This document shows, in pieces, positions 284-64,000 of a stretch of 64,000 bases of DNA. A model generated the notes under the pieces. That model saw nothing but the letters and a program-made list of their open reading frames with translations, made no database searches and was not told the origin of the DNA. The stretch is from contig JADHYV010000089.1 of assembly GCA_027604705.1 (NCBI GenBank), positions 1 to 64,000 of the forward strand. The letters run 5' to 3'. Each line of letters starts with the position of its first letter. Positions within the stretch are counted from its first letter, which is position 1. A program made the translations under genes and the position numbers. Source of the DNA: Allomyces arbusculus. Lineage: Eukaryota > Blastocladiomycota > Blastocladiomycetes > Blastocladiales > Blastocladiaceae.

Positions 284-2946
284 ATGAATGGCTCCAACTT
301 CCCGACTGCGCCCGGCGCGCCGCCGCTGTCTGCGGGCTCGCATGCACCCGTCGCTGACGTTTACACCTACGCGCTGGCAAGCACTGGCTTTGCTAGCGGC
401 ACGTTTGCGTGCGGCGCGTTCAATGACGATTTGTCCGCCACCTACCCGCCCAGTCTGATGGCCTACCGCGCATACGCTTCTTCGTACCCGCCGTGGGCAG
501 CGTCGCCATATGCCGCGAGCTATTTCCCGTCGCCTGGCCCAATCGCCGCCTTCCCACCAGCAAATGCAGACCCGCCGCTGCAACCCAACCTTGATCCTCG
601 CCTTGGCCCTGCAGCCGCTCCACCTGTGGCGCCGCCGAGTCTTCCTCCTTCAACGCGACTGATTCCGGCACCAATCGCCATGGCTGCTGAGAATGGACCC
701 ACTCCTGCACCTGTTACTCGCCTGGCGCTGACGCTGCCAACCACCGCACCATCGGCCGCTGCACCATCGCCCGCGGCCGCCATACCGTCTACGACGTTTA
801 CCGAAGCAACGCTCAAGCACACCGCTCCCTCCACAGCGCCCGCACAGCCGGCAACAACTGGCGCCGTGCTCACATCTGCCCCGCAGCCCGCGATGGCCCC
901 AGTTACTGCGCCCAACGAGTTATTTGACCCAGTTCACGTTGCTCGTGAGGTTGCCGCTGCACCTCCAGCCCCACCAATTCGTGCGTCGGTGTCGCGGAAG
1001 CATCGCCGTGCTGCGATTGGTGGCGCGGCCGCGCTGAAGACAGCTCAACTGGCAACGACTCGACCTCCAGCACCCGCGACCTCTCGTCGACGGCGTCCGC
1101 TCGAGGACGCCAATGCCGACCCTCGTGCTCCCAAGCACTGAGGGCACTACACGCTCGAGTTCAAGGTCAAGGTCATTGAGTCCCATGAGGAGCACCCGAC
1201 CATCTCGTGGGTCGATCTCGTGCGCCAATTCTGGGACGAGAACTACCCCAATCTCACAGAGTCGACCATCCGCGGGTGGTGCGACAAGGAAATGGACTTG
1301 CTCATTGCGGCGCGCGACGCATTCGCTCACCCAGAGCGGGTCATGCGCGCCAGTGAAACAGTGCTTGGGCTCAAGGTCGAGAAGGCGCTCGTCCGCTGGA
1401 TTCGCGAGCTCATTGGCCGCAGGATCACGGTGACCGGTGCGCTCATTGAGGCCAAGGCCCTTGAGCTGGCGGGTGCACTTGGTCTCGAGGAGGGGTCATT
1501 CAAGGCGTCGCCTGGTTGGCTCAACCTGTTTTTGCACCGGCATGGGCTCAAGTCGTATGTCATGCATGGTGCGTTCCTCCTCATCATTTCCCACTCGCGT
1601 ACCTTGATCTCACCAACCAACCATTCCTACAGGCGAGGGCGGGAAAGTGACTGAGGATATGCTTAAAGCTGCCCGTGCCAACGCGAACCGTCTTTCCGTC
1701 AATTGGACCTCGGAACACATCCACAATGCCGACGAGGGTGCGCTCTTCTACCGCACGCTCCCGTGGCGCACGTACGCGTTTGCCCCAATCAATGGTAGCG
1801 AGGTGCGCAAGGACCGGATCACGTTCCTGATTGCCACGAACGCGACAGGCATGTTCAAGGACCTCATGGTCATTGACGAGTCGAAGACCCCTGCTGCTGT
1901 GAAGGAAGCGGGTGGCCGCGAGCAGTGGGGCGATCTTTTCCGTTGCGTGTTTTACCAGCACAACTGGTCAACGGCATGGATGATGGGCAAGCTCTTTGCC
2001 GAGTGGCTCAAGGCGTTTGATGCAAAGCTCTCGCACCCAAGTCTATTGTTTGTGGATGATTGCATCCGTTCACATTCTTGATGCTGCTGTCTACAGGGGT
2101 CTCAACTTGCAGCACATCCGGCTTGAGTTCTTGCACCCAAACGTGACCTCGCACATCCAACTGGCTGACCAAGGAATAATCCGCTCGCTCAAGGCCATGT
2201 ACCGCGCGCTCCTGCTGCCCAAGTTCTTGGACATCATTGGTCGCAACTGCGCGTCCACCCCCAAGGGCCAGACCTACGCGCAGTTCACGAACCCATACTT
2301 GGCCTGCAACTTCTCGATGCTCGATGTTGTCACGCTGCTCCTGAACGCGCTTGATCACCTGTCGCCCATCACGATCCGAAATTGATGGCTCAAGGCTGGA
2401 TTTCTGACCAATGAGCAGCAGAAGGTGCTGCACGGTCTCAACTGCACCGCATTGCAGGTTGCCAACCCGCAGCTGACGGATCCTGCAGTTGTGTCGCTGA
2501 CTGAAATGGCCATGGAGCATCGCGACGACTTGGCGGGTGTGGAGATGCAAGATCTGATGGATGCGATTCGCGACTTCATGGCCCAGTGTCACCTGCCCCC
2601 TGCATCAGCCGACAAGCTGAAGGAGATTGCCCATGCGTGGGTGGAGCGTGGGCACACGGATCCGGATCCGAAAGGCGTCGAGGAAGATGCACCCGACCAT
2701 ATTCTGGGACTGTACGATCCGAGTGAGTGGGCGCAGGTGTTTGTAGCCGCTGTGGGTCATGATGCTGGAGCAGACAGGAATGGTGGGGACGTGGCGGTCA
2801 TGGATGAGGTCGATGAATTGACACATTTGCAGGTGAGCAACGACGAGTATGTGGAGCTCCTTCGGAAGCTGGCCATTGGGGCAAAAGAGCACGGAAAGAC
2901 GACGTTTGAGTACCATGTGTGGAAGCAGTTGGTCTTGTTTGAGTGA
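284..2946 (+). pseudogene. Degenerate pogo/Tigger-type (DDE_1) transposase gene
   Basis: Decayed DNA-transposon gene. The first ~285 codons from ATG 284 are Pro/Ala/Thr-rich without a recognisable fold. From about 1145 the frame reads two CENP-B-like helix-turn-helix modules (LEFKVKVIE..., then a segment ending GWLNLFLHRHGLK). The DDE_1 core follows: NADEGALFYR (Asp codon 1731), LLFVDDC (Asp 2055), and HPNVTSHIQLADQGIIR (Asp 2167). The last two Asp lie ~37 residues apart, as in pogo/Tigger. A normal intron (1569-1632) splits the HTH part from the catalytic part. An acidic tail runs to TGA 2944-2946. It is broken by TGA at 1139-1141, a one-base frameshift near 2078 (the frame resumes as LDAAVYRGLN) and TGA at 2383-2385. 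No terminal inverted repeats were identified, so the element's limits are unknown. Whether the Pro/Ala-rich head belongs to the element or to a host gene it landed in is unresolved. Confidence 0.8.
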
Positions 2947-19089: not shown

Positions 19090-21201
19090 ATGGATCCGCC
19101 CCGAGCGGCCCCAAGCTCAACCCCACGTGCACAGCGCGACAGGACGCCTCCACCGCAAACCGTCGGTGACACGATCGTGGACGTCTTCGACTACGACGCC
19201 GACGACGCGCTGCACGCCCTATCCTGCGCCAACTTGCTGCACCCGACGCGGACCCTCACCATGGCCGACCATGGCCTCCCCGGCGCGCCGGCGCCCGCCA
19301 ACGCCGTCGACGGCGGGCTTACATCGGCCACCAATGACGATGCCGGCCCCTTGGCCGCCATGCACCCGCTCGCCGCCGCGCTCGCGCATGTCCACGTACC
19401 GTCCGACGCAAGAGCACATGGAACCGCACACGCCGCGCACGCGCAGGCGCACGTCTCGCGCTCCGGCGCCTCGTCGCCGCCCACGATGCGCAAGCGGTCG
19501 CCTGCCGACTACGATTTTGGGCAGACGCTCGGCGAAGGCTCCTACTCGACCGTCGTCCGCGCCACCGACCGTCATTCGCACAAGGTTGTCGCCATCAAGA
19601 TCCTCGACAAGCGGCACATTGTCAAGGAAAAGAAGACCAAGTATGTCGCCGTCGAAAAGGCGGCCCTCACGCTCCTCGCGCGCCATCCGCTCGTCGTGCA
19701 CCTTTTGGCCACGTTCCAGGACGCGCAGTCGCTCTATTTCGTACTCGAGTGCGCCGAGAATGGCGAGCTACTCGCCTACATTCGCCGCACGCACGACGGG
19801 CTCGATCTCGATGCAGCTCGGTTTTATGCGGCCGAGTTGATTTTGGCTGTCGAGTACCTGCACTCGATGGGCGTATTGCACCGCGATCTCAAGGTACTGT
19901 AACTGAAGGTTCTCGACTGCGATGGATCCGCGAAGCAACCCGGACGGACCCTCACCTCAAACCAGCCAGAAAACGTGCTTCTCTCGTCCGACATGCACAT
20001 CAAGCTCGCCGATTTCGGGTCGGCCAAGTTATTGCGGCCCGAGTCGCCGCCTCAGCAGTCCCCAGCGCCACCACGAGACCCTGGCCACCATCACGACGCC
20101 GACACGCACGCCGATCCTGACGCGCCGCCAAGGAGCACGCGCTCGTTTGTCGGCACCGCCGAATACGTCTCACCCGAGCTGTTGCAGGACCAGCCCGCGG
20201 GCGCAGCCAGCGACGTCTGGGCGATCGGGTGCATTCTCTACCAAATGCTCGTGGGCCGCCCGCCGTTCAAGGGCAGCAATGACTACCAGACGTTCCAGAA
20301 AATCCTGAAGCGCGAGTTTACGGTCCCCGACCGCGTCGATCCGGACGCGCGCGACTTGATTGACAAGATGCTCGTGCTCGATCCGACCGCGCGGATCTCG
20401 CTCGCCGACGCCAAGCAGCACGCGTTTTTCAACGGGTTTGATTGGACGATGCCGGTGTGGGAACAGACGCCGCCGCCGTTGCCGAGGGCGCCGTCGACGG
20501 ATGCAGATGCGGATGGGGACGAGTGGTTGGATGGGAGTGATCCGACAGCGGCCGCGTACTGGAACAGTGGGCGTGCCGAGTCGCTCGCGAGCGACGACGA
20601 CAGCAGCCGCCATCATCTTACGCCGTCGCCGCCATCGTCGGGCGAACCGTTCCCGCCGCTCCACGCCGACTCCCCACTACCGCCACTCCCGGCCATCCCC
20701 GCGGCCGATTTGGCGCGGTGGTCCCCCTTTTTGCACCCGGGCGAGCGCCTTCTCAAACTCGGGTACGTAGTCAAGCGTAAGGGCTTGTTCCGCACGCAGA
20801 CCAGGATGTTGCTCGTCGTCGACCCGCCGCGACTGCCGTACGTGGACCCCGAGAAGATGGTCGTCAAGGGCGAGATCCCATGGACGCCGCGTACCGTACC
20901 GGAACGGCGGTCGACCAAGGCGTTCTACATTCATGTGCCCGGACGGACGTACGATCTCGAGTGCTGTGACCACGATGCCGGGTCGTGGGTCGATTTGTTG
21001 GCGGCGATGCGGGCCAGGGCGTGGGGGCGCGGGGCGGGCGGGATTGGTGGGCCGTTGGTCGTGGCGAGGGGGGTGCCGGCAGGGGCGGGCGGGAGTGGAG
21101 CGGTGTCCCCGGTCGGATCGGCGCGTGGGCGAGGACATGGCGGGGATGGTGTATCGAGGGGCGATGTGGACGACGGCGACGATGACGACGATGAGAAATG
21201 A
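19090..21201 (+). CDS. 3-phosphoinositide-dependent protein kinase 1 (PDK1) with PH domain
   Basis: AGC-family Ser/Thr kinase that phosphorylates the activation loop of other AGC kinases (fungal Pkh/Ksg1 role). Model of 679 aa from two exons (19090-19893, 19966-21201). The kinase domain spans residues ~141-425: Gly loop LGEGSYSTVV, Lys in VAIKILDKRHI, PIF-pocket helix VAVEKAAL, catalytic HRDLKPENVLL (spanning the intron), DFGSAK at Asp 284, and the activation loop SFVGTAEYVSPELL with the autophosphorylated Ser. Between DFGSAK and SFVGT there is a ~35-residue Pro/His/Asp-rich insert, far longer than usual. The C-terminal PH domain (~residues 525-615) has the PDK1-specific KRKGLFRTQTRMLLVVDPPR, VKGEIPWTP and FYIHVPGRTYDLE. 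Met 19090 is the first Met after the GRASP leader, but Met 19261 (MADHGLPG) is a fair alternative. The first ~130 residues are disordered. Confidence 0.93.
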
Positions 21202-27051: not shown

Positions 27052-30000
27052 TTACAGCAGCACTTGCTCCAGGAGCCCCTCGAGCATGCGGCATCGCGAG
27101 CACGTGCACCCGTTGCGGGCGCCGACGCACACCGACTTGCGCGTCTTGCCCGAGGCCGTCGTCGACGCAACCGACTGAGCCGACCCCTTCATGGCCGACC
27201 GCACAAGCTTGGACGACGACGATTCCTTCTTGGTCGAGGTCGTGGCCGACGCGTTCGACATGCCGAGGACCTTGAGCAACTGCTCGTCCTGCTGCTTCTT
27301 GGCGGCTTTGCTGGCCGACGCCGACGAGGCCGACGACTTGGCGGCGCCCGACTTGCTGGTGCTCACATTGGCCGTGACCGTCGCCGAGGTCTTGCCCGAC
27401 GAAACCGACTTCTTGACGGACTTGCTCGACTGCGACTGCGAGCGGGAACGGCTCTCGCTGCGCGAGTGGCGGTGGCGGCTCTGCGACCGGCTCGACGAGC
27501 GGCGCGACGAGGCCGTCGACTTGTTGGTCTCCGACAGCGCCGGGAGGCCGGCCTGGCGGCGGCAGTCATCGCAGAAGCAGCGGATCGTCGAGTTGGCGGC
27601 CGACGACGAGGCCTGTTGCTGCTGGCTGCGCTGCTGGACGTGCTGCTCCTGCTGCTGCGAGATGTTGGTGGCGTTGGCGCCGAGCTGGTACATCATCTGC
27701 AAATTGGACCCGAAAATAGAGCGTTTGTCAGTTGATGGTTCCAGTGAGAAAAACGGCACGATTGCGGAAGTTGCAAGTAAAAAACCGTACCGAGGCAAAG
27801 TCGTAGATGCGCTTGGTGCGCTCATCGACGTCGGCGCCGTGAATGTTGCTCGTTGAGTCCTGGAACGTCGACGAGTAGGTCTCGTTCTTGGACGCCTTCA
27901 ATGCGGCCGTCCCGTGATTCACGACGTTGGTCGAGTCGGTCTTAGTGATGGTCACGTTCGTCTTGACGTCCTTGACGTGGTTCGAAACGCGCGCACCAAC
28001 GTCCTGGATGTGCCATAGAATAATGTAAGCCAACGAGTTTTTCGGTTGTGAGTTGGCGAAGTCAAGCGTACCGAGTCCGACGACGAAGACGACGAGGACG
28101 ACGAGGATGACGAATCGTCATGGTGGTGGTGGTGGCGGCGCGACACGCGCTGCTCGGTCTGGTAACGCTGGATGACCGTGTTGATACGGTCATCCTCGCT
28201 CTGAACACGCGCTGAGTCGCGGCGATGGCGGCGGTGCGACGACGACGAGCGGTGGTGTTTGTGGCCGTGGCGCGCGACGGACGACTCATCATCGCTCGAC
28301 AACGACGACGAATCGCTGTCCGACGAGTACTCCTCGGTATGCACGTGCTGCTGCACGTAGACGTGCTGGTTGACGTGCACGTTGACCGTCGGCTGCTGCG
28401 GCAAGGGAACCGGCGCCGGCACGACCGCAGGAACGATGGGGCGCTCCGGGCGGTCGCGGCGGTGGCGGTGGCGGCGGCAGTAGTGGTGCTGGTGGTGCTG
28501 GCTGCCGCCGCACGACATGGCCATGGTCCCGGCCACGGCCGAGTTCGTCAAGGTCTCGTCGTGGTGCACAACCGTCGTCGAGTTGGTCTGCTGTTGCTGC
28601 TGCTGGTGGTGGTGCGACGTGGTCGCGACTTGGACGGGCGCGGGCGGGCACACGGCAATGAACGGGCCCTGGGCGGCGCCATTGTTGTCGTTAATCTCCT
28701 GGTGGTTGGTGGTCGTCGTCGTGGTCGTCTCCACGACCTGCGTCTCGCCGTACTTGGTCTGGATGTCGTTGAGCACCGCCGCGTACTGCGCGAGATCCTG
28801 ATCCTCTGCCTGCGGCTGCGTCTTGTGGATGACCTGGCCCGACTGCTGCGACTGCTGCATCTGCATCTGCATCTGCTGCTGCTGTTGCTGTTGCTGCTGC
28901 TGCATGTGCTGCTCGTACTGCATGCGCTGCTCGTGCTCGTATTGCATGCGCTGCTCCTCTTCAAACTTCATGCGCTGCTCCTGCTCGAGCTTGATGCGCA
29001 TTTCCTCCTGCTGCTGAAGCTGCATCTGCATCTGCTGGATCTGCTCCTGCTGCTGACGGAACTGCTGCTCCTGGAACCGCATCTGTTCCTGCTGGTTCTT
29101 CCACGACTCCACGGCCGACTCGGCCTGCGCCTGGAGACGCTGCTGGCTCGACTGCGACGTGAACGCGGCCATGTCCGACGACATGCCCATCACATACTGC
29201 AGGTGGTGCGGAATGTACTTGCCCGAGGTCATGAACGATGGCTGGCCCTGGATCACAACCGACGACAGGTCCTCGGACGTGAACGACGACGACACGGCCC
29301 CCATCGTGGTCATGTTGCCCGCGGCCATGTTCGTCGCGCCAAACTGCTGCGACTGCTGATAATCCATCGACTCCTGCTGCTGCGACTGCTGCGTCTGCTG
29401 GAACGAGGCCGACATGCCGTTGCCCGCCGTGACCGACATGTAGTCAGCGTTGCCGCCCTGGAAGCTGGCCGCGCCCTGGAAACCGGCGGCACCCATGGCA
29501 CCCGCAGCCGCGTTCTGGAAACTGGCCGAGACCGAGTTGCCGACCTGCTGGAAGTTCAGCGCATCGCCCGTGCCCGCGTTCAGGTACTGGATGTTGGCAT
29601 TCACTTCCTCGACCGTCGCGTTGGGCTGTTGCTGGTTCTTGGCATCGTCACCACCAAACAGCTTCTTGAAGAAGCCGCGCGAGCGCGACCCGTCAGCGTC
29701 GCGCGCGTTCTCGTCGTCCGAGTCGGACTCCGAGTCGTCGCCGCCAAAGAGACCGCGCGAGCGGTACCCGCTCGACTGCTGCTGATAGGACGACGAGTAC
29801 TTGGACGAGCTCGCCTGCTGCGCCGCCGACGACGAGGCTGCGTGGTAGGACGACGACGACGCGGCATTGTACGACTGGCCGTTGGCGCCCTGCTGCTGCT
29901 GCGCGTAGCCCCATTGCGAGCCGTTCATCGACATTTGGCCGCCGGGGACCGGCATGCTGCAGAGGCCAATGGTCGACTGGTACCCGCTCGACGCACCCAT

Positions 30001-32016
30001 CATGCCCGACGGCATCATGCCCGAGGACGACGCCGACCAGCCCGTCTGATACGCGTTGCCGCCGTTGACACGGCCCGAGTTGTTCCACGACGTTGACGAG
30101 CTCTGGTTCTGGTTCTGCATCTGCTGCTGGTTCCAGGCCGACGACGACGACGAGTTCTGGTTCTGGCTCTGCTGCTGGTTCCACGACGTGTTCGAGTTGG
30201 CGCCCGAGTTCCACTGACCGACCTGCTGCTGCGACTGCTGCTGCGACGACGAGCCGTTGTTCCACTTGCCGCCCTGCTGCTGCGACTGCGACTGCGACGA
30301 GCCTGAGTTCCACTGGCCACCCTGCTGCTGCGACTGCGATTGCGACGAGCCCGAGTTCCACTTGCCGGACGACGACTGCTGCTGCGACTGCGACTGCTGC
30401 GAGTTCGATCCGGTCGTCGTGCCCCACTTACCCCCACCGGCCTGCTGGTTGGTCGAGTTCCACTGCGACCCGCCCTGAATACTCGTCGACGACGCGCCCT
30501 GCATGCCCGTATTCCACTGCGACCCGCCTTGAATGTTCGTCGACGAGGTGCCCTGCGCACCCGAGTTCCATTGGCCACCAGACTGCTGGTTTGACGCCGA
30601 CTGGTTCGACGCGTTCCACTGGCCGCCCGACTGCTGGTTGGTGGAAGACTGGTTCGACGAGTTCCACTTGCCGCCCGACTGCTGGTTGGTGGAAGACTGG
30701 TTGGCCGAGTTCCACTGCGAGCTGCCGCCTGACTGCTGGTTCGACGCCGACTGGTTCGACGAGTTCCACTTGCCGCCCGACTGCTGGTTGGTGGAAGACT
30801 GGTTGGACGCGTTCCAACCACCCGACTGCTGCGACTGGTTGGACGCCTGGTTGGACGCGTTCCACTGCGAGTTGCTCGACTGCTGGTTCGATGCCGACGT
30901 CGAAGTGTTCGTCTTGCCGCCGTTCACCATGTTCAAGTAGGCCTGCTCGGTCGCCTGGTGCGCTGCAATCTGTTGCTTCCACTGGTCCTGGCCGGCCTGC
31001 CAGGCAGCCATGTTCGACGACGAACTCGACGCTTGGTTCGAGGCCTGGTTGGTCGCCGACTGGTTGCTCGCGTTCCATTGGCCCGACTGGTTCGAGGCCT
31101 GGTTTGACTGGTTGGACGCGTTCCATGCACCCGACTGCTGCGACTGGTTGGACGCCTGGTTGGACGCGTTCCACTGCGAGTTGCTCGACTGCTGGTTCGA
31201 TGCCGATGTCGACGTGTTCGTCTTGCCGCCGTTCACCATGTTCAAGTAGGCCTGCTCGGTCGCCTGGTGCGCGGCAATCTGTTGCTTCCACTGGTCCTGA
31301 CCGGCTTGCCAGGCAGCCATGTTCGACGACGAGCTCGACGTGTTCTGGTTCGAAGTCTGGTTGGTCGCTGACTGGTTGCTCGCGTTCCACTGGCTCCCGC
31401 TCTGCGCGCTCGTCGACGTCGTGTTCGTCTTGCCGCCATTGATCGACGCCAGGTAGGCTTGCTCGGTCGCCTGGTGCGCCGCGATCTGCTGCTTCCACTG
31501 GTCCTGGCCAGCCTGCCACGCGGCCATGTTCGACGAACTCGACGACGCGGCCGCGGCACCCGACGAGGCCTGTTGCTGCGACTGCGACTGCTGCTGCGAG
31601 GACTGGTTACTCGCGTTCCATCCACCCGACTGGTTCGATGCCTGGTTCGACTGGTTGGACGCGTTCCACCCACCCGACTGGTTGGACGCGTTCCAGCCGC
31701 CGGACACCGACTGGTTCGACGCCGACGCGCCGCCCTGGTAGCTGGCGCCGCCCTGGTAACTCGCACCGCCCTGGTAACTCGCACCGCCCTGGTAACTGGC
31801 ACCGCCCGACGCAGCGCCGCCGTGGCACGACGACGAGGCGCCGCCGCCCTGCTGCCACGACGAGCCGCCCTGGGACTGGCTCTGCGACTGGCTCTGCGAG
31901 CCCTGGTTCCAGGAACTGGATGCCTGCTGCTGCGACTGCGACTGCGACTGCGACGACGAGGCGCCGCCGGACGCGCCGCCGCCGTACGAGGTGGTCGTGT
32001 ACTGGTAGGTCGACAT
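27052..32016 (-). CDS. Giant prion-like Q/N/S-rich repeat protein with Cys-motif tail
   Basis: Function not recognised. Model of 1600 aa from three exons on the minus strand: 32016-28072, 28003-27791, 27696-27052. There is no signal peptide or membrane helix. The N-terminal ~700 residues are Gln/Asn/Ser/Gly/Trp-rich: SYQGGA repeats, many QWNASNQS units, and three copies of a larger repeat containing AAWQAGQDQWKQQIAAHQ. The middle has SRGLFGGDDSESDSDDENA and a Gln/Met/Glu coiled coil (about residues 1000-1105, QEQQFRQQQEQIQQMQMQ). Then come His/Arg- and Ser-rich patches. Exon 2 (SNHVKDVKTNVTITKTDSTN...) has ordinary composition. The tail is SR-like (SRSESRSRSQSQSS), with two small Cys motifs, CFCDDC and CVGARNGCTCSRC, the second only 13 residues from the end. 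Its composition suggests a condensate- or fibre-forming protein. Multiple in-frame repeats with no stops across 3.9 kb and preserved splice phases support a real gene. Confidence 0.85.
30840..31540 (-). repeat. Three-copy internal repeat in the prion-like gene
   Basis: The segment coding AAWQAGQDQWKQQIAAHQ and the following Ala-Thr-Glu-Gln-Ala-Tyr-Leu occurs three times, offset by about 309 and 207 bases. The two downstream copies (by gene direction) are nearly identical over roughly 190 bases, including NMVNGGKTNTSTSASNQQ. That near identity indicates recent duplication or gene conversion. Confidence 0.9.
31732..31803 (-). repeat. 18-bp tandem repeat coding YQGGAS
   Basis: Four consecutive units of an 18-base repeat (plus-strand CCCTGGTAACTCGCACCG and near variants) encode SYQGGA repeats near the N-terminus of the prion-like protein. 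Confidence 0.9.
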
Positions 32017-33267
32017 GGTGGATAACTTGGTGGTCAAGAGGCTGTCAAGTGGAGGAAGTTGGTGCGGGTTCGCGTTAGCTTTTCGCGCACAGGCAGAGAA
32101 ACGAGGAAGCAGGACGAGTGGCGGCCCGAGGGACGGAAGGTCGCCGCAGCGCGCGCGCGCGAGGTCCGACCACCGTCGACGACGGCCTTGATCCCCGCCG
32201 CGAAAACGCAAATGGAGACCTGGCAAGGAGGCGCACGTACTTGGACGATGTGGGCAAGGGCGAAGCAAAAACCGGCAAAGCGCGATCGGCGCGGATACGG
32301 CACGGCTTCGAGCAGCAAACGCTGGCAAACGGCCCACGAGTCGAGACACGGGACTGGGTCGTCGAAGAGGACGGGAGGGTACGATGCGAGCGCTATGTAG
32401 TTGAAGGCGGTCAGCTTTCAGATCAGCAAGGACCAACGCGGGGCAGGCGGCGACTTTGCAGCCTGCTGTGCCCGGCGTGCGACAGGTACTCACGTCAAAG
32501 TCGGGACACGCTCGGCAACGGACGCTCGGCACCACGACGAGCACGAAAACTTGGAGCTTGCGAAGAACGCGAGGACGATGAGCGGGCGACGATGCGCGAC
32601 GCTGCCGAGAGAGAAAGGAAGCGCGGCCCGGCGCCTTTGAGGTGGAGCCTTGGAGGTGGTGCGTTTGTGGGGGCGCTTTTAGTGTGCGCTGCGCCCAACC
32701 AGTGCAAAGTGCAAAGTGGCCCAGGCAGCCTTTCCAACTTTGGCACGGCCACAGAAGGCTTTGCACGCTTCCATTTCTCTTGTTTCTTGCGCGCACGCCA
32801 TGGACACCCACCAACAAGAACTCCGCCATGAACCTGTCGGTCACGGCCACGGACGATACGCGAGAGCATAGCCGACGCGCGTGCTTCCATGGAGAAGAAC
32901 CCGACAACGCGGACGGCTAACCCAAAATAAATATGGATGATTTTCGGTCGCTCAGAGCGCGCGGCTCCGTCTATCGCAAAATCAATCAAGGCAATAAAAA
33001 AGACAAACAGAAAGAATACACGCGCCCACAGCGCGCTCGACACACGATCATACACGACGCCGTGGACCCTCTCTACGCTTCCACCCCCTTGATTGCTGCT
33101 GCCCGGGTCGGCCCGCGCACACTCCACCCTCAAGGTTCATGGTCCTGCCGCTGCACGACCAGCGCGCAACCACAGCTCAACCTGAGCGGCTCTCCAACCC
33201 TCGCTAACCCAGGGCCTGATGCGACATCTCGGCAGCGTCCTTGTCCACCCGGCCGCCGCCCTCTTGC
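32017..33267. other. Intergenic upstream of the prion-like gene
   Basis: About 1.25 kb between two minus-strand genes, an unusually long 5' region for this gene-dense segment. It contains a short (CG)n-type run near 32150. No supported gene: open frames here lack codon bias and splice support. Confidence 0.45.
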
Positions 33268-49394: not shown

Positions 49395-52300
49395 ATGGCC
49401 GATCCGGCCGCGCCCGACGGCGGACTCGCCGATTTCTCGCCTCCCGCGGGCCTCGACGCCGACGGCCCACCGTCTACCGGCCTCGTCGCTCCAGACACGA
49501 TTTCCGGTGATGCCGCACCGACTGACTCGGACGCTCCCGTCACCGAGGACCTCGGCTTGCCTGACCTCGGCGCAGGCGGTGCACCGCTCGCCGCTATCGC
49601 CACCAACGACGCTGACAATGACACGACGGGCCAAGCGCGCCGCATGATCCAGGCCGCCATGGCCAAACTCGACTCGCCCGTCTTTGACGCTGCCGCTCCG
49701 CCGCCGATTCCCGAGGAGGAGGATGCGACCGGAGCACTTGACGCGGCAATGGCGACGGCTGCGCCGGCACGCGCGCCGCGCTGGGGTAGCAGCTCTGCCG
49801 GCGAATTGCCCGCTGGTGACGGTGGGGTTATGGACGGTAGTGACGATGTGGGGAGTGGGCCGATTGCCGATATCATGTCGGCTGCCGCAGCGGCGGGCGG
49901 AGACGTGGACGAGGATCTCGCCGTCATGGACCCGAACAACGTACTTGGAGTGACCACGGTGTTGCCGACGAGTGCGCATCGCTCACCACCGTGGTTCTCG
50001 GTCTGTAGCCGCTGATGCGCCGCGTGCAAGACGCGCTCGCCAAGCAGCTCGCGACCGCCGACGAGCAGCTGACGCTCGAGCTGCGCGAGAAAGTGCGACT
50101 TCAGCCGCCATCTCCACTCTCCTCCACTTCCCGCACCCGCTCACCCCCCTCATTCGCCCACAGGAAGAGGACCTGCGCAAGTCCAAGGTGCGTCGCGAAC
50201 AAGTCGGTGTCGAGCTCTACGCCCTGCAGCAACAGCTCGCCAAGGCGCAGTCGCAACTTGAATCCGCGCACCAGGCCTACGCCGTCATCAAGACGCACCG
50301 CGAAAAAGCTGAGGCCACGGCCAAATCCACGCGCGACAAGTACGCGACGCACCGCGACCAACTCACCAAGCAGCAACAGGCGCTGTCCGCGCGCAAGGGC
50401 GAACTCGAAGTGCTGTCCCGCACGCTCGGCCAGATTCAGCTGTTCCACGAGGAAATGAAGGGCAAATTGTCGACGACGCGCCGCGTCACGCTCAAGGCCG
50501 AGGAGGACTTGGTCAAGCAGGAGGCTGAGAAGCGCAAGCAGGACTTGTATATTCACCAGTTGACGCAGCGGCTCGAGGCGCTCAAGGATCAGCGCAGTAC
50601 GCTCGATGCGCAGATTGGCGACCAGAAGGAGGATATGGCGCGGTTGCAGGAGACGATTCAGGACGCCAACACGGAAATGGAGGTGCGTTTCCTGACGGCG
50701 TCGATGCTCGCGGATTCGCTTCACCTCACTTATTCTCGAACTCACCGGCTCGGCATCGTTCTAGGCGATCGTCTTTGAAAAGCGCCAGCTGCTGCACCAG
50801 TGGAAAAGCAGTTTGATCAGCATGCAGCGGCGGCAAGACGTGCTCGGGCAACTCGAGCAGGCCGTGTTCAAGGAAAAGGAGCGGCTATTGCACATGGACA
50901 ACGAGCTCGCCGGGTTCAAGCACGCGCTCGCGCAAGTCGCGACCGAGAACGAGACGCTGACTATGCTGCACGACAAGCTCGGCACCGAATCCACCTTGCT
51001 CTCGGCGCAGATCAAGCAGCTTGCCGAGCGCCGCGACACGCTCAAGCACGAGTACGGCGTCGTGCAGCGCAGTCTCGACGCGTGCGAGGCCGAGCTCAAG
51101 CAGGTCGCGCACCACCGGCAGTCGCTCGTCAACGAGGTGAATGCGCTCAAGAAGCAGTTGGGCACGGCGCAGCAAAAGGCGGTCAAGGTGGAGCGCGAGA
51201 TTGCCGAGCAGATCCAGAACGAGCTTGGACTTGATAAGAGCATGCAGGGTACGCTCAAGGACGCCAAGAAGCTCACGCAGGTGATTCATGACAAGGAGGC
51301 CATGATTGCCGTGACCGAGAACCAGGTCGCGCAGACCAAGATTGAGGCCGCGACCATGGCCGATACACTCGCGCAGCGGCGGCGCGACTTGGCCGATCTC
51401 GACGCGGTGATTCAGACCAAGAACGGGACCATTGAAAAGTACGAGCTCGAGATTCGGCGCGGCAACGACGAAATGGCCAAGAAGCAGTCGGAGATTGACT
51501 TGCTCAACAAGAAGCTCAATCAGATCTTGCAGCAGTCGACCGACGAGGCGATTGGGCCCATGGAGGCCACGATTCACAACTTGACCAAGTCGATTGCCGC
51601 CAAGGAAAAGGAGTGCTGGGACCTGCAGCAGTTTTGGCTGCGCAACCAGAACGAGCTCGTCGTCACGGCCAAGAAGGCCAGCGACTTGGCCGAGACGATT
51701 GGCAACTTGCGCATGCGGCTCACGATCTTGTCGCGCAAAAAGGCCATGCTCAACCAGGCGTTTGACGCCGAGGAGGGTGAGATCAAGTTCCACCAGCGCA
51801 ACATCAAGGCGCTGCAAAACGACATGGTCAAGATCAACACGCTCTTGTCGCGGCAGACGTCGGTGCAGGCCGATCTCGAGGAGGGGAACCTCGGCGTCGA
51901 GCAGGAGTTTCGGTTCCGGCTGCGGGTACGCCTTTCTTGCGTGCTCTCTTTGCCGTTTGCGCAAGCGAAGTTGTTCTCTGAACCTTGTTGACCGTCGCTT
52001 CCGGTCCACTTCTAGGAAGCCGAAATGGAGGCCGTGCGCATGGAGCAGCAAGTGCGCGACCTGCAATCCGAAAAGGACCGCGCGCTCGGCGGCCTGCTCG
52101 ACATGGAGCGGCAAATTATGCTCTGGGAAAAGAAGATTCAGCTGGCCAAGGAGACGCGCGAGGCACTCGACCCGAACATTGGCGCGCAGGAAATCAAGGA
52201 AATGGCGCTCGAGATTCACCGCATGGAATTGCGGCTCAGCAATCTCGAAAAACTGCAGGAAAAGCTCGTTACGGAAATGGAAAAGGGTGTCGTGCGCCGA

Positions 52301-52888
52301 GAAACGATTGCGCTGCGATCCAAGCTGCGCGGCAAGGGGTATACGCAGGCGACGCTCACCAAGGCCATCACGGATCTCGGCAAGCAGCTCAAGGGGACAC
52401 TCACGGATTTGAAGGACTTGGATGCAGATACCGCTGCGGTACAGGGAGCGCTCGACCGCGTACGCGCGCAGATCAGTGATGCACACGAGCGGCTCGCGGC
52501 GTTGCGCGACCGGCATCGCGCGCTTATCGAGGAGATTGTTGTCTTGCAGGACACGAAGTTGGCTGCGTTCACGACGATTGCGATGCTGCAAAAGAAGGCC
52601 AAGCGATACCAGAGCGTGCAGGAGGGGAAGTACGCGTTTGTCAAGGCCGACGCGGGCGAGCGCAGTACCGAGCTGTCCAAGCAGTTGGAGCGGCTCGACA
52701 AGGTGGACAAGGCGCTGCACACGGTCGTGGTGCGTGGCAGATGCCCGGCGTCGCGAACCGGAAATAGCGCCATTCACTAACGCTGATCAATCGTCTTGCG
52801 CTAGGCCGACTGTCCGCACGAACTGGCCGCCGCGGGACAAAGCCTCGACGTGTTCTTGACCAGCGCGCGGCAGTTTGTCTCGGGGTGA
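49395..52888 (+). CDS. CCDC40: CCDC40 (FAP172-type) axonemal ruler protein
   Basis: Coiled-coil protein that, with CCDC39, runs along the outer doublet and sets the 96-nm repeat for radial spokes and inner dynein arms in motile cilia. Model of 1035 aa from six exons: 49395-49940, 50009-50092, 50164-50682, 50765-51925, 52016-52729, 52805-52888. The first ~180 residues are acidic and disordered. Almost all the rest is heptad-repeat coiled coil. Family landmarks: LMRRVQDALAKQL leading into LRKSKVRREQVGVELYALQQ (~190-225), IVFEKRQLLHQWKSSLISMQ RRQ (~385-407) and RQIMLWEKKIQLAKETREAL followed by IKEMALEIHRMELRLSNLE and GVVRRETIAL (~790-870). CCDC39 could be confused with it, but WEKKIQLAKE and the VARRET-like motif match CCDC40 best. 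Its presence implies flagellated zoospores. Confidence 0.92.
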
Positions 52889-57285: not shown

Positions 57286-57868
57286 GCGGTCTTGGGACGG
57301 TTGGGGCGTGATGCGGGTTGCGTTTGCGACGCGTCAAGCGAGCGAGCAAAGCACGTTGACGAGGGGTTAGTAGTACGGGCGGTTGGGTTCGGGTTTTTTC
57401 CTTCTTTCGTTCGTTCGTTTCGTGGTCATTTTCTTCAGCAATATCACCGGTGCATTGTTTTGGGTAGCGATCCTTTGATATTTTGCCTCCTGGGAACTCA
57501 TTCATCATCTACCACTGCCGGCGTCGGAGTCGGGCGGGTCGCACGCGTCGGTCTGTGCAGGTGCTGGCTGGCCATGTCCAGATTCCGGCCAAATCGGTGC
57601 TGTTTCCAGCCAGATTGATCTCGCAACTCGCAGCGTCAACGCGTACAAGTCCCAGCGACCAACGACCACAGCTTGCTGCACTTGATGCTTGATTGTGATT
57701 GCGCTCGCTCGACGCGCCCCCACGATGATCAGCACGAAAACGTCGCCAACCGCAAGGACAGCTGGAGCAACGACCGTGCGCACCAAGGCAACCGCCAAGC
57801 TGATCACGACCACCATGATGACTGCAGGCGATACGAGCTCAAGAGCCCGTTCCGCTGCGGTGGACAGG
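57286..57868. other. Intergenic between RAE1 and the chimeric receptor
   Basis: RAE1 3' region and the promoter/leader of the receptor. The receptor's frame stays open upstream to 57689 (Mets at 57689 and 57725), so part of this stretch could be coding if an upstream start is used. Confidence 0.45.
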
Positions 57869-60800
57869 ATGCCCTCTTCTGTAACGAGCGCGGAAACAGC
57901 GTCTGCGAGCACGCACCGGCGACATGCGAGCGTCGACCTCGACGCAAGTCAACTTCGAGGTGTTCACTTCGTGCTCGTTCTGGCTCTGCTGCTTCTCCTG
58001 GCTGCTCCTACGGACGCAGCGACACAAGCAAAGCGGCGCACGCTTTCGTCATGCTTGCCCATGGCCGACACGGCATCGTTTGGCTGGGTCGGCCTCTCTG
58101 CCCAGGATCCCAGCAAGCCCGTGATACAGCAGCAGGCCGCGCGCATTACCTTGGAAATTAACCCGTGGTCGAGGTAAGGTCGTGCTCATCGTGCTCATAC
58201 TTCATACCATCGCGCATTCTGATCGAACCGATACTGTTCGCGACGTTTAGCGCAAACGTGACAACGTACGTGGCCGCCCTGCTTCTGCAGGATGTCATGG
58301 GCGTCAACGTCTCGCTCAGCGAGTACGGAGACTACGAGAATATCTTTGCGCGCATCGCCACCGGCCAAGTCGACGGCAACCTAGAAACGTGGCCCAACTC
58401 CCGGGTCGCGCTCTACCAGCAAGTGCGGACTCCCCTGTTCTGACTCGGCCGCGCGCAACCCGGCAGTTCAACTGGCGCTGACCATCCCGAATGGCCATGA
58501 TAGTACGTCGTGCAGCTCGGCGCCGTCGAGGACCTCGGCCTGGTCGGGTACACGGGCAAGACGTCATGGTTTTTGCCGGCAAGTGCCGTCAATGCCAACC
58601 CAAGCAAAATCTTTGACTCCTGGCGCTCTTACTACCGCGCCGACGTCTTGGCGCTCCTCCCACTCGCGGGCACGACCACGCCCGCGCGCAAACCCGACGG
58701 GTCGTGGCTGTGCGATACGGCCACGTTCTCGTACTGCTCCAACGGCATGTTCGTTCCGCCACAATGCCAAGGCAATCCGGCGATGCCGTGCCGCGAGTTT
58801 TGGGTCCAGTTTGCTCCTGCCCCCGCATATAGCAATGGAGGTTCACGCATTGACGAACTTCGACCATTTCTAGTCCATTAACCCGGCGTTGAGCCCAGGA
58901 TCCAACGAGCAGCGCATCATTTCTCTCAACTTGCCGCTCGTCGTCGTCTACCTCGGCTCCGACTTTCTCCCGGCAGTGCAATCCTGTGCCGCGCAAGCGT
59001 CAGCGTGCATTTTCCATTACTGGAAGCCCGAGGTGCTCGTCTCGACCACGGCCTTGACGCGCATCAACCTGCCCGAGTACTCGTCGACGTGTCTCGGCAA
59101 TTTTTCAGCGGCTCGGGTCGGCCAACCCGGGAACAGTCTGACCTGTGACTGGACCGTCGAGCTGCTCACGAAACTCGGTCGTCCTGCGCTCGCGACGGAG
59201 ACGCCGCACGTCTACAATTTGCTCCGGTTTCTCACGTTTCGCGACGTCGACATCGATGCGTTGCTGGCCGATCTGGCGCGGACCGGTTACGAAGCTGGCG
59301 CCGCGGCGTGCAATTGGATCATGGCGAACCGCAATATCTGGTCATCATGGATCCCGGCGCCGCCGGCCGACTACAGTGCGTTTTGCTGGCGCCCCTCGTT
59401 TCTCTGTTCGCCGGCGCACCACCGACTCACCAAACTCCTACCCTCTCCTTCCGTCTCCACCCGAAATTGCAGTCAAGACGCTCGAGCAGATCGAACCCAA
59501 TTCCCCGCTCTCGGCATCTCTGCTCACGGCCACCGCGGGTGTCGTCGTCGCCGCGATTCTATCTGCCGGCGGACTCGTCCGCTTTGCTCGCCACGACCCG
59601 ATCGTGCAGCAAGCGCCCGTGTATCAGTGGCTTGTGGTCGTATCCGTCCTCTTGGCCGGCGGATCGGTCGCGACCCTCCTCGTCCCGGCCACGACTGATG
59701 TCTGCATTGCACGTACCTGGCTGCTCGCCATGGCCTGGACCATTTTTCTCGGCGCAACGGCCGTCAAGACTTGGTACACATACCTGACCTTTGGCAACCG
59801 GCGCATGTCCGTGAACCCGCCCGCGCGCCGCGTCCTTCTCCCGGCGGTCGGAATCGCCGTCGCACTCGACGCGGCCATGCTTGCGGCATGGACCTCGCTC
59901 GCCGACCCGGGACCGACAGCAACGACCGTCTCGGTCAAGACGTTCACGCTCGTGTGCCGCCCGCGCGCCGCGACATCCACCGCGTACGCGCTCACGACGG
60001 CCCTCAACGTCTTCCACGGCCTGTTGCTGCTCACGGCCGCGCGCACGGCGCGCCGGATCCGTCGGGTGCGGCTACCTTATCGCGAGAACCGCGCTGTCGC
60101 AGGGGTCATGTCGGTCGTGCTGCTCGCCGGAGCGGTCGCCGGGTCGGTCTCGTTGTCGACGTCAGTCACGTATTTTGCCGAGGCGGTCGTGCAAGCCGTC
60201 GCGACGATTGTGGCCATGGCCGCGGCGTTGGGTGCGCTCGTCATGCGGCCGATTTGGGAGGCGCACAAGGCCGCCAAGAAGGGTGGGGGCAAGGTGGCGA
60301 CAGGGAACGACGGCAAGAGCGCTGCGAGTGACGGGAGCAAGTTTGAGACACCGCGCGTCGCGTCGTCGACGATATTGGAGAGCGCGACGTTGCCGTCGAC
60401 GCCCATCGAGGTTCCATCCAAGGGGGCCAATTTGCGGCCAGGGTCCGGATCGGCGGCGGGGACGGGCTCTGGTGCCGACGACCGGCCGGCAAATGGCGAG
60501 GATCCAACTACGGTCATGGTACGACTTTTCGTTTGACGAGATTCAGCATGCACTCCGGCGCTCACTTGCTTACCAGTTAATTTGCTCGTGATGTGGTAGG
60601 CCACGCGCGTCGGTATCAACTACGCGATGCAAAAAGTGTCGGGCGTGTTCCGGACCTGGACCGACGTGCATCTGCTGCTATTCAGCTCGCCATGCCCGGT
60701 CCTGCTTATCGCCGATGCCAAGGATCAGGTGCGTGACCTGATTTATTTCCTTCTCTATCCTGTCGCCGCAGCGTTTTCCGTGACGACTGATCCACATTTT

Positions 60801-61132
60801 TTTCGCTATCGTAGAGCGCGCCATGCCGCGCCTACACGACCAACCTGCAAGCGGCCAAGATCGACGCCAACTTGGCCAAGACATTCCCGGGCTGCTTTTT
60901 GCTGCGCGTCGACGGCACCGGGTGGATCGTGCAAACGACCGACGCGGCCGCGGCCGATAGCTGGGTTGCGGAGATTGAAACGGTTTTCAAGGACGTGGCG
61001 GCATCACACTCGCCCGCGCAATCGATGAGCATGAAGTTGTGGTCGGCCACGGCCAATAGCGGTGGGGGCGGAGTCGGGCGCGCGACGGCGCGCGGAGGAT
61101 TGCGGTCGCGCGGCGGGTCGACTGTCGGGTGA
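57869..61132 (+). CDS. Chimeric receptor: OpuAC-type binding domain + class C GPCR 7TM + PH-like domain
   Basis: Predicted cell-surface receptor of ~927 aa from seven exons: 57869-58173, 58251-58422, 58504-58840, 58899-59375, 59473-60518, 60600-60728, 60815-61132. A hydrophobic signal (HFVLVLALLLLLAAPTDA) ends near residue 50. Residues ~60-425 resemble the substrate-binding protein of bacterial glycine-betaine/proline ABC transporters (OpuAC/ProX): YVAALLLQDVMGVNVSLSEY, then IATGQVDGNLETWPNSRVAL and GLVGYTGKTSWFLP. Seven helices follow (~443-690). Helix 3 has the class C mark: CIARTWLLAMAWTIFLGATA leading to KTWYTY. The Cys of that helix and one near TLVCRPR could form the usual disulfide. 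Exons 6-7 (~780-885) look like a PH fold (WTDVHLLLFSSPCPVLLIAD ... GCFLLRVDGTGWIVQTTD ... SWVAEIETVF). The start codon is uncertain because the Met-to-signal distance is long. The fourth exon's 5' edge was chosen by phase. Osmolyte or betaine sensing through G proteins is inference. Confidence 0.82.
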
Positions 61133-61362: not shown

Positions 61363-63441
61363 TTATGAAGAACCAGCTCCCGATCCGGACCCCAGACTCG
61401 CTTCGGCAGCTGCACCTGCGGGACTCGCCGTCACGCTCGCGTGCGCCCGCGCAGATCGTGCTCGCGATCCCGACCCAGTGCGTCGGATCGTCACCGGCGC
61501 CGCAGCCTCGTCGTCTTCGATCGTGAACCGCGGGAACACACCGCGCACCTGGTCCATGTCGAGGTTCCGGCCAAGCACCCATCCGTCCGACAAGATGCGC
61601 TCCACGAGCATATTGTCGCCGCGCAACACCGACACTTCGTCGTCGCGGCGCGCCAGGTACGGCGCCGTCGCGCGGTACCGCGCGCCCACAACCAGCGTCG
61701 TCGTCAACGGATCGGCGTCGACTGAGACGGGCTCGGCAGTCGCTGCTGCTGCGGCGGTATTGGACGACGAAGGCGTCCACAGAATCGACCCGGCCGATGA
61801 AATGCGCTGGATGAGTCGCGAAGGTGGACGGTGCCGTCGCGCACCAGGACCGTGGCCGGTGCTCGATCCGGCGATGCTTGCTGTCGGGTTGACAATGATG
61901 CCAGATGAGGCAATGCGTTCGAGGAACTGCGACGGGCGGCGTTCGCGCAAGTGCGGCGGGATGGCCTTGGGCGATGGCGGGCCCCTAAGCGCGTCGGCTG
62001 CAGCTGGGCACGCATCGTTGCGCGCGGCATCGTTGCTGGGGGTTGGCAAGACGGTTGGGTTCGCAGTTGCCACAGTCGCGCTGCTTTCGGAACCCAACAG
62101 ATCGATTTCGGACTCGGCTCGCGAAAGGGCGGGAGAGGTCGAGTCCAATCTGCTGGAGGGTGGTGCCGCGGATGGAGTGGCCGGCGGCCGCGGTGGGGAG
62201 GGTGGAGACGGCGCCACGGGTGGTAACGGAGGAAAGGGTGCCGACGGCGCAGACGGTGAGGATGGTGGAGAAGGGGGAGAGGGTGCGGACGGTGCCGACG
62301 GTGGACAGGGCGGTGACGGAGGATGTGGGGGAGATGGTGGGATTGGCAGCGCGGGAGGAGACGGTGGGGTTGGCAGCGCGGGAGGAGACGATGAGGAGGG
62401 CGGTATCGGTGGAGATGGTGGAGTGGGCGGTGTCGGTGGAGCGAATGACTGTGGCGTCGTTGGGGTTTGCGGTGTCATCGGGGTTCGCGGCGTCGTCGGT
62501 GTCCGCGGCGTGCCGACCGAATGCGACGGATCAGACGAGGTCGATTCGCGGAACTGGCCGCCCATTGGAGCACTTCCGCTGCTGCTCGACGTGTCGACGG
62601 GTACGGGCGGCACGAGCTGCGCCAGCGCGGCTTGAATCTCGAGCGAGAGCGACGCGTTGAGCGTGCGCACCGGCGGTTCACGCCATTCCGGCACGGCCTG
62701 CTCGGCACGCTTCATGGCCTCGGACCGCCGCTTGCGCTTGGCCCGTTCTTCGGCCGCGACGGCAGCGCTCGCCACATGCGCGGTCGGGAACCCCATGGCA
62801 GCGCTCCCCGCGCCACCCATCATGACCGGTGCGGGCGCGGCAGTCGTCGACGACGATCCCGAAGCACTGCCGCCGGCGGCGCCGCGCCGTGGGGCATGCA
62901 CGGCGCCGTCCTGCTTCTGCGCGAGCATCTTGGCGCGCGTACTGCGACGTTGTGGCGTGTAGGTCTCGCCGAGCTCGGCGTTGGCCGCAGCCACGACGAG
63001 AATGCGGTCGAGGTCGCCGATGATGGGCCCCGGCGGCGCGTTGAAGTCGGTCGAAGAGGATTCAGACGAGGTCGGCGAGGTTGGTGAGGTCGGGCACGCA
63101 GAATGACCGGGCTGGGCCTGCTTTGCACGGTGCTGATCCTGATGGCCGTGTTTGCGGTGTGCGTGGTCAGGCAGCACCGCCGGGAGGCCAGGGCCGGGCG
63201 TGGCCGAGCGCGTTCGGGCGGGCGTGTAGTTGGTCATGATCATGGACGAGGTACGCGCGATATGGCGCGGGATCGGTGGGGGAGGCGGAGCCTCTGGGTC
63301 GGGCTGGAAGGGGATGGCGGCCTTGCTGGTGTGCGGAATGTCGATGGGCTTGCTGAGTTCGCGGTTGAGCGCCCAGACCAGCACCAAGACGGCGCCGATG
63401 CCGACAACGGCGAGAATAGCGATTGTGGAGGACGACGGCAT
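61363..63441 (-). CDS. Single-pass membrane protein with Pro-rich region and C-terminal SH3 domain
   Basis: Function not recognised. Intronless, 692 aa. The N-terminus MPSSSTIAILAVVGIGAVLV followed by LVWALN is an uncleaved signal anchor (helix ~7-27) with almost no residues outside. The cytosolic part contains Ser/Thr-rich patches, Thr-Pro repeats (TPRTPTTPRTPMTPQTPTTP, ~335-355) and a striking run of PPSPP/PPAPP-type repeats (~360-455). The last ordered segment is an SH3 domain (~583-640): VVGARYRATAPYLARRDDEV ... WVLGRNLDMDQVRGVFPRF, with the ALYDY-like start and the Gly-x-hydrophobic-Pro end (GVFP). Thr-Pro sites suggest proline-directed kinase control. The layout (one N-terminal helix, long cytosolic region, C-terminal SH3) recalls yeast Fus1 but this is only an architectural analogy. 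Its own Pro-rich stretch could bind its SH3 or that of another molecule. Confidence 0.8.
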   Translation of the reverse strand: MPSSSTIAILAVVGIGAVLVLVWALNRELSKPIDIPHTSKAAIPFQPDPEAPPPPPIPRHIARTSSMIMTNYTPARTRSATPGPGLPAVLPDHAHRKHGHQDQHRAKQAQPGHSACPTSPTSPTSSESSSTDFNAPPGPIIGDLDRILVVAAANAELGETYTPQRRSTRAKMLAQKQDGAVHAPRRGAAGGSASGSSSTTAAPAPVMMGGAGSAAMGFPTAHVASAAVAAEERAKRKRRSEAMKRAEQAVPEWREPPVRTLNASLSLEIQAALAQLVPPVPVDTSSSSGSAPMGGQFRESTSSDPSHSVGTPRTPTTPRTPMTPQTPTTPQSFAPPTPPTPPSPPIPPSSSSPPALPTPPSPPALPIPPSPPHPPSPPCPPSAPSAPSPPSPPSSPSAPSAPFPPLPPVAPSPPSPPRPPATPSAAPPSSRLDSTSPALSRAESEIDLLGSESSATVATANPTVLPTPSNDAARNDACPAAADALRGPPSPKAIPPHLRERRPSQFLERIASSGIIVNPTASIAGSSTGHGPGARRHRPPSRLIQRISSAGSILWTPSSSNTAAAAATAEPVSVDADPLTTTLVVGARYRATAPYLARRDDEVSVLRGDNMLVERILSDGWVLGRNLDMDQVRGVFPRFTIEDDEAAAPVTIRRTGSGSRARSARAHASVTASPAGAAAEASLGSGSGAGSS

Positions 63442-64000
63442 CTGGGCGCGCTTGGTGGTTGGTGGCGAGAGGACGCCGATCAGGTTGGATCAGGACCGTC
63501 GTGGGTGCTGGCACGACACCGGCGCGTGGTGCGGCGGCCGCGTCGGGTCGAGTGCAGCAAGTTCAGGTGCACGACAGGCGCGCGCGACGCGTCGGGACGT
63601 GCGTGGTGCGGATGCGGAGCACCAACGACCAAGGGCGTCGTACTCGACGATGGAGCGCGGCAGGCCGCTCGACCGACTGGCTGCTCGCATCATCAAGCTC
63701 GACAGATTTTGTCGTTAAGTGTTGCACGTTGCGCCACGCAGCTGCCATTCGCAGGGCGGGTGTCATGTGTGGCTCGTGTGGCGTTGGCCGCGCGCGTGAT
63801 GCGCCAAGAAATTGGCGGAAACCTAAGCAAAACTCTGGCGAAACCTGAAACCAGGCAGCACCAGCACGCGATGCAAGTTTGGGCTTTCGCCCAGGAGCGT
63901 TCCCTCTTTTTCCGATCTTGGGCGCCTGCTGCTTTTGGCATATAGGCAGCACCTGCTTCATTGCCTGATCTCGTGCGGCTGACGGGCCATCCCTGCCTTT
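63442..64000. other. Window end: upstream of the SH3 gene
   Basis: Holds the promoter and leader of the minus-strand SH3 gene. No other gene is supported before the window ends. Confidence 0.4.

Follow-up and report, generated by a model that had tools for sequence, protein, structure and literature searches.

A predicted class C receptor that carries an OpuAC-type binding domain on GABA-B-like helices, with a PH-like tail

Within the 64,000 nucleotides analysed here (the window), one predicted gene joins a bacterial-type substrate-binding domain to the seven-helix domain of class C G protein-coupled receptors, as a first-pass annotation had proposed for positions 57869-61132 and as Pfam matches to PF04069 and PF00003 confirm. 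Judged by sequence, the outer domain (hereafter the trap) and the helix domain clearly belong to their respective families, and the trap clearly retains cage tryptophans. The order trap, class C helices, PH-like tail is firmly supported for its first two members and moderately for the third. Taken as a whole, these features are best explained by a class C receptor that would sense a methylated onium compound by way of its OpuAC-type trap, a reading that we hold with somewhat better than even confidence.

The gene model was built by combining GT-AG splice sites between the named start codon and the stop at 61132, and we infer from it a structure of seven exons and six introns (Table 1). Four models were free of stops among the combinations offered. 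Two of them were rejected, in that exon 3 is read in a different frame and KTSWFLP is lost; the remaining one differs from the chosen model solely by two residues at intron 5. All four of the stretches GQVDGNLETWPNSRVAL, KTSWFLP, CIARTWLLAMAWTIFLG and KTWYTY are present in the product of the chosen model. The introns are 70-97 bases long, with phases 2, 0, 0, 1, 0 and 0 in order, and the third-position G+C of the gene is 78.5%. The first three lie in the trap, after residues 101, 159 and 259, and the others follow residue 426 in the linker, 775 in the tail and 818 in the PH-like part; the earlier expectation of introns inside every part is not borne out, the helix bundle (aa 436-683) lying wholly within exon 5. 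The donor of intron 3, at 58804 (gtccag), is weak. Exon 3 contains two further in-frame GTs (58645 and 58753); these were rejected as donors because their use would delete conserved or inserted sequence, and 58804 was retained. The exact N-terminus is unsure because additional in-frame ATGs lie upstream of the chosen start, at 57725 and 57818. No paralogue was found in the window, where tblastn with the protein (E up to 1) returned only its own exons.

Table 1. Coordinates of the predicted receptor gene, its domains and selected residues, and of a nearby flagellar gene.
Feature	Position	Strand	Basis
Whole gene model, 7 exons, 923 aa	57869..61132	+	splice enumeration, intron phases
Inferred exons	57869-58173, 58251-58422, 58504-58803, 58874-59375, 59473-60518, 60600-60728, 60815-61132	+	splice enumeration
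Hydrophobic signal-like segment, aa 29-47	57953..58009	+	hydropathy scan only
OpuAC-type (type II) substrate-binding domain, ~aa 85-420, introns 1-3 inside	58121..59356	+	Pfam, tblastn, alignment of 35 SBPs
W100 codon, cage position of DmpX Trp35 / TmoX Trp55	58166..58168	+	PDB alignment
W149 codon, cage position of DmpX Trp84 / TmoX Trp102	58390..58392	+	PDB alignment
T179 codon, position of DmpX Glu113 / TmoX Glu131, polar contact lost	58561..58563	+	alignment
F234 codon, candidate for cage position of DmpX Trp152 / TmoX Trp177	58726..58728	+	ambiguous alignment
W259 codon, alternative candidate for the place of DmpX Trp152 / TmoX Trp177	58801-58803	+	ambiguous alignment
H307-Y308-W309; W309 = DmpX Trp202 / TmoX Trp222; H307 = DmpX Tyr200 / TmoX Phe220	59015..59023	+	alignment
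Cysteine-rich insertion, aa 236-267, split by intron 3	58732..58897	+	absent from 35 of 35 aligned bacterial SBPs
Cysteine pair C332 (59090-59092) and C350 (59144-59146)	59090..59146	+	invariant in 35 aligned bacterial SBPs
Class C seven-transmembrane domain, aa 436-683, single exon	59499..60242	+	PF00003, PDB match, low-confidence model
Probable PH-like cytoplasmic domain (aa 785-874), with intron 6 (60729-60814) inside	60627..60982	+	PF00169
CCDC40-like flagellar gene	50765-51976	+	E 1.2e-46 vs solved CCDC40, 6 axonemal sequences matched

The junction between trap and helices hangs on intron 4 (59376-59472), placed by splice-site logic only, and it is here that one might suppose two separate genes to have been wrongly joined, the first for a secreted OpuAC-like protein and the second for a separate seven-helix protein. 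However, if intron 4 were retained the frame of the trap would hit a stop at 59698 and the helices would never be read, and the helix frame offers no ATG between the trap coding sequence and the first helix. The same domain order is moreover described in published fungal receptors, in the part of that source covered (PMC3251606). We regard two misjoined genes as very improbable and treat the product below as one chain.

The domain search set beforehand as a check on the trap gave a clear result. In a Pfam scan of the full-length protein, OpuAC (PF04069) scored 42.1 bits, above its cut-off of 21.2 (E = 1e-10), in two stretches, the best spanning aa 92-187 and profile positions 2-96 of 257. No ANF/LIVBP model appeared in the same scan at E up to 1, and an ANF/LIVBP outer domain was rejected on that ground. 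Five PDB sequences matched the trap at E up to 1, all of them either named as binders of the glycine betaine type or ABC transporter subunits. Taken over the whole sequence the best match was 7yle (E = 2.7e-8), and 4xz6 gave 2.9e-5; their single stretches are weak alone (0.12 and 0.00022 for 7yle, 0.068 and 0.7 for 4xz6). Among plasmid records, tblastn with the trap returned five (three of the five over 91% of the query; identity 21-29%), and a search through bacterial genomes yielded 235 confirmed stretches related to it, of which 80 loci were kept, with a best E of 2e-28 that is relative to the candidates only. No relatives were confirmed in viral contigs with either the helix domain or the trap alignment as query.

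For closer comparison the trap was aligned with 35 bacterial substrate-binding proteins (SBPs), drawn from 32 of the 80 genome loci and 3 plasmid loci, to which the receptor is 21.8-29.2% identical. Thirteen columns are invariant in the bacterial proteins, and the receptor matches 12 of these, with Asp for Glu at the remaining one; part of the invariance of W100 is built in, because the W100 motif was included in the pattern by which the genome-contig rows were retrieved. A profile made from the trap alignment matched nine PDB sequences, all binding proteins of the trap's family except one weak protein A construct, a result that is not independent evidence because four of the five profile rows are bacterial. 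In a tree of 36 rows, the trap falls together (100/99) with 15 rows that are actinobacterial and 2 from Chloroflexota. It sits on a long branch (2.34) and its composition was flagged as odd, and for these reasons we claim no donor.

Two of the matched structures allow the binding site to be read residue by residue: 7yle is DmpX with DMSP bound (PMC10030565) and 4xz6 is TmoX with TMAO bound (PMC8918994), each as given in the part of the paper covered. The cage around DMSP in DmpX consists of Trp35, Trp84, Trp152 and Trp202, with Thr64, Glu113, Ala153 and Tyr200, and replacement of Tyr200 by Ala or Phe abolishes DMSP binding; aromatic cages in such SBPs have three or four residues (all from the covered part of PMC10030565). 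The ligand residues of TmoX are given as Trp55, Trp102, Trp177, Trp222, Phe106, Phe220 and Glu131 (PMC8918994, likewise in part). By sequence, the receptor keeps three of the four cage tryptophans of DmpX (W100, W149 and W309), and its fourth site is aromatic in either of two alignments, being F234 or W259, which together would furnish an aromatic cage of the usual size. The column of F234 holds W in 18, Y in 11 and F in 6 of the 35 bacterial rows. The choice between the two residues is ambiguous because an insertion of 32 residues, with cysteines C237, C247 and C255, lies alongside, near the cage. Elsewhere in the trap, C332 and C350 likely form a disulfide.

The polar contacts of DmpX and TmoX (Glu113/131 and, in DmpX, Tyr200) are absent, with Thr179 and His307 in their places. 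Because the same sites vary across the bacterial rows (I 17, E 16, G 1 and N 1 in the Thr179 column; Y 16, M 10, V 5, Q 2, H 1 and T 1 in the His307 column), they speak on specificity and not on family. These two differences nonetheless favour an alternative with the same architecture in which the ligand of the trap has been lost or changed, so that the protein would be a non-binding heterodimer partner or would bind a ligand outside the methylated onium class. The cysteine-rich insertion near the cage, the long branch in the tree and the fact that the helix domain finds its best PDB matches in GABA-B2 chains lean the same way; GABA-B2 is itself the non-binding partner in a heterodimer. By contrast, the three clear cage tryptophans and the 12 retained invariant columns would be needless in a dead trap, and we consider a lost or changed ligand unlikely.

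Our best bet, then, is that the trap binds a methylated onium compound and not proline itself. A betaine- or proline-like ligand had been suggested in the first pass; the betaine-like part of that suggestion is supported both by the cage residues that the trap keeps and by the genes that surround some of its bacterial relatives, while proline itself finds no support. Genes for a betaine-homocysteine methyltransferase and for a ProV-type ATPase lie adjacent to relatives L005 and L021, respectively, both matched above cut-off. Matches under the cut-off include a demethylase-like gene, also adjacent to L021, and a ProV-type ATPase near L045. Choline dehydrogenase and ABC genes are found near L003, and a betaine/proline/choline ATPase is adjacent to L001. 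At each of L006, L007 and L061, the single flanking gene tested showed no betaine link. The choline-binder model TIGR03414 matched the receptor only at E 0.02; its matches to L005, L006 and L021, with E from 3e-11 to 5.6e-19, fall far short of the cut-off.

The class C assignment is carried by the helix domain, for which the domain search likewise succeeded: 7tm_3 (PF00003) scored 74.9 bits, well above its cut-off of 33.5 (E = 1.1e-20), and covered profile positions 4-248 of 251. Against the PDB, the helix domain matched 16 distinct sequences at E up to 1, namely 15 GABA-B subunits and one mGlu6, with GABA-B2 chains best (E = 1.2e-7). Structure prediction, which had been recommended as a way of counting the helices, gave a single-sequence model of the helix exon with seven helices of at least 22 residues plus one of 5, at low confidence (pLDDT 54). 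At a hydropathy threshold of 1.4, six of the seven helices pass and the fifth falls below, and an extra peak lies within the trap (aa 274-292). A fold search with the helix model returned 532 matches, all of them with E above 0.001. Among the best 50 of the 532, 39 are class C according to our reading of their titles, the others being unnamed, class A GPCRs or designed GPCR-like folds. We accordingly base the prediction of seven membrane helices mainly on the near full-length PF00003 match.

Membership of class C is also commonly judged by an ANF/LIVBP-type outer domain, in place of which OpuAC is present here; assignment by the helix domain stands because OpuAC outer domains have already been published for some fungal members, in the parts of those sources covered. 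The trap ends at about aa 420 and the first helix begins at about aa 440, and this short linker could not accommodate the cysteine-rich domain found in glutamate receptors. The receptor in this respect resembles the GABA-B receptor, its closest solved helix domain by sequence, in having no room for NCD3G; GABA-B is described, in a source covered in part, as having an ANF domain without NCD3G. The two differ in the trap, which has the ANF (type I) fold in GABA-B and is of type II in the present receptor.

Beyond the helices, the tail is probably a PH-like domain. Scanned alone, it matched PF00169 at 18.5 bits (E = 0.003) along nearly the whole profile (positions 7-102 of 105), and with other ends chosen for the tail the E-values ranged from 0.0035 to 0.0069. 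Control scans of its true reverse and nine shuffles gave a PH match in none of ten and a match to any family in three of ten (best E 0.22). The PH-like fold that the first-pass annotation placed at the end of the protein is moderately supported by this near full-length match and these clean controls, and is weakened by a score under the curated cut-off of 25.1 that is reached with the tail alone. A chance match, in a tail that lacks a PH domain and is disordered or belongs to some other domain, would account for that low score, for the absence of PF00169 from the Pfam scan of the full-length protein and for the lack of any PDB sequence match to the tail at E up to 10. It would fit poorly with the nearly complete profile match and with reversed and shuffled sequences that never produced one, and we think it rather unlikely.

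The core architecture, an OpuAC-type trap on class C helices, is already known. Krishnan et al. (2012; PMC3251606), in the part covered, described fungal receptors of class C. Allomyces macrogynus accounts for 78 of these, among which AMAG_01750, 04252, 14324, 14326, 15836 and 17562 bear OpuAC and others different type II domains, and the novelty implied in the first pass is thereby lost. Similarly, type II SBP domains sit on about half of the class C GPCRs of gut fungi (PMC5168858, 2016, in part). The present receptor resembles those of A. macrogynus in bearing OpuAC PF04069 on class C helices, in what is probably a zoosporic fungus, and without NCD3G; going by the description in the covered part of PMC3251606, only the present receptor is noted to have a PH-like tail, a cysteine-rich insertion and the cage residues. 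It shares with the gut-fungal receptors a type II SBP domain in place of ANF, but their traps are described as sugar-uptake-like (PMC5168858, in part), whereas the present trap resembles betaine/TMAO/DMSP binders. With DmpX (7YLE) and TmoX (4XZ6), as described in the covered parts of their papers, it shares sequence family and three aromatic cage tryptophans; those proteins, however, serve ABC importers, and the receptor has Glu113/131 and Tyr200/Phe220 replaced and carries the 32-residue insertion. The PH-like tail, the cysteine-rich insertion and the specific ligand prediction are possibly new. At the level of titles and abstract beginnings, in a literature coverage that leaves most subscription journals outside, we found no PH tail or cage analysis on such receptors.

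The G+C content of the window is 62%, and we take that of Allomyces to be similar. This value, together with the identical two domains in identical order (compared by description only, with a source covered in part), favours the gene being among the six class C receptors with OpuAC listed for A. macrogynus in 2012, or a direct orthologue. Such an identity is compatible with our best explanation, and we consider it quite possible, if somewhat short of probable.

Bacterial contamination was rejected as a source of the trap-bearing gene: the genes around it are eukaryotic, and several of them extend over more than one open stretch. These neighbours include CCR4-NOT NOT3, GRASP, an actin family member, SNF2, a kinase with a PH_3 domain and CCDC40, with a WD40 protein directly upstream of the receptor gene. 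The CCDC40 flagellar gene nearby supports a swimming, flagellated organism, and that organism is probably a zoosporic fungus. It is flanked by coiled-coil-like open stretches without clear Pfam match (50104-50718 and 52019-52732). The kinase, which is presumably PDK1-like, occupies 19156-21009 on the plus strand, its domain running over two open stretches of which the second ends in the PH_3 domain (E 7.2e-27). Convergent with the receptor gene, on the minus strand at 61366-63489, is an open frame of 708 residues. By eye, a hydrophobic segment is visible close to its N-terminus; it also has a long stretch rich in proline and serine, and weak SH3 matches at E 2.6e-5 and 7.8e-5, both under the cut-off. 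Its product has the look of a membrane protein with one transmembrane pass and an SH3 domain. Also in the window are a Tc5-type transposase DNA-binding domain near its start (1148-1588, plus strand; E 8.6e-17), marking a mobile element, and an open frame of 1259 aa (28270-32046, minus strand) with Ser/Gln/Gly-rich early residues and a high coding score, for which there was no Pfam match at E up to 0.001.

In the mechanism that we propose, the signal segment would direct export of a type II substrate-binding domain with two lobes, a member of the glycine betaine/TMAO/DMSP/choline family. To judge from the conserved residues, a methylated cation (quaternary ammonium, sulfonium or N-oxide) held in the aromatic cage between the lobes would close the trap. 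Closure would then be passed through the short linker, with no cysteine-rich domain intervening, to the GABA-B-like seven-helix domain and on to a G protein, and the PH-like tail may keep the receptor or its partners at the membrane by binding lipid or G-beta-gamma. The putative use of the receptor is likely nutrient or osmolyte sensing, for example in zoospore steering. A more specific proposal, which we offer tentatively and hold with less than even confidence, is a zoospore chemoreceptor in which a bacterial type II trap for methylated onium compounds, GABA-B-like helices, a eukaryote-specific cysteine-rich insertion and a PH tail tying sensing to phosphoinositide/G-beta-gamma signalling are united in one chain.

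In the parts covered, the two papers on fungal receptors give no tested ligand for receptors of this kind (PMC3251606, PMC5168858). The cage residues lead to a concrete prediction, a methylated cation, that would give one such receptor a ligand class. If true, it would show how a type II trap can drive the kind of helix bundle that a type I trap drives in the class C receptors of animals, and swimming fungal cells would be linked to common osmolytes of algae and plants.
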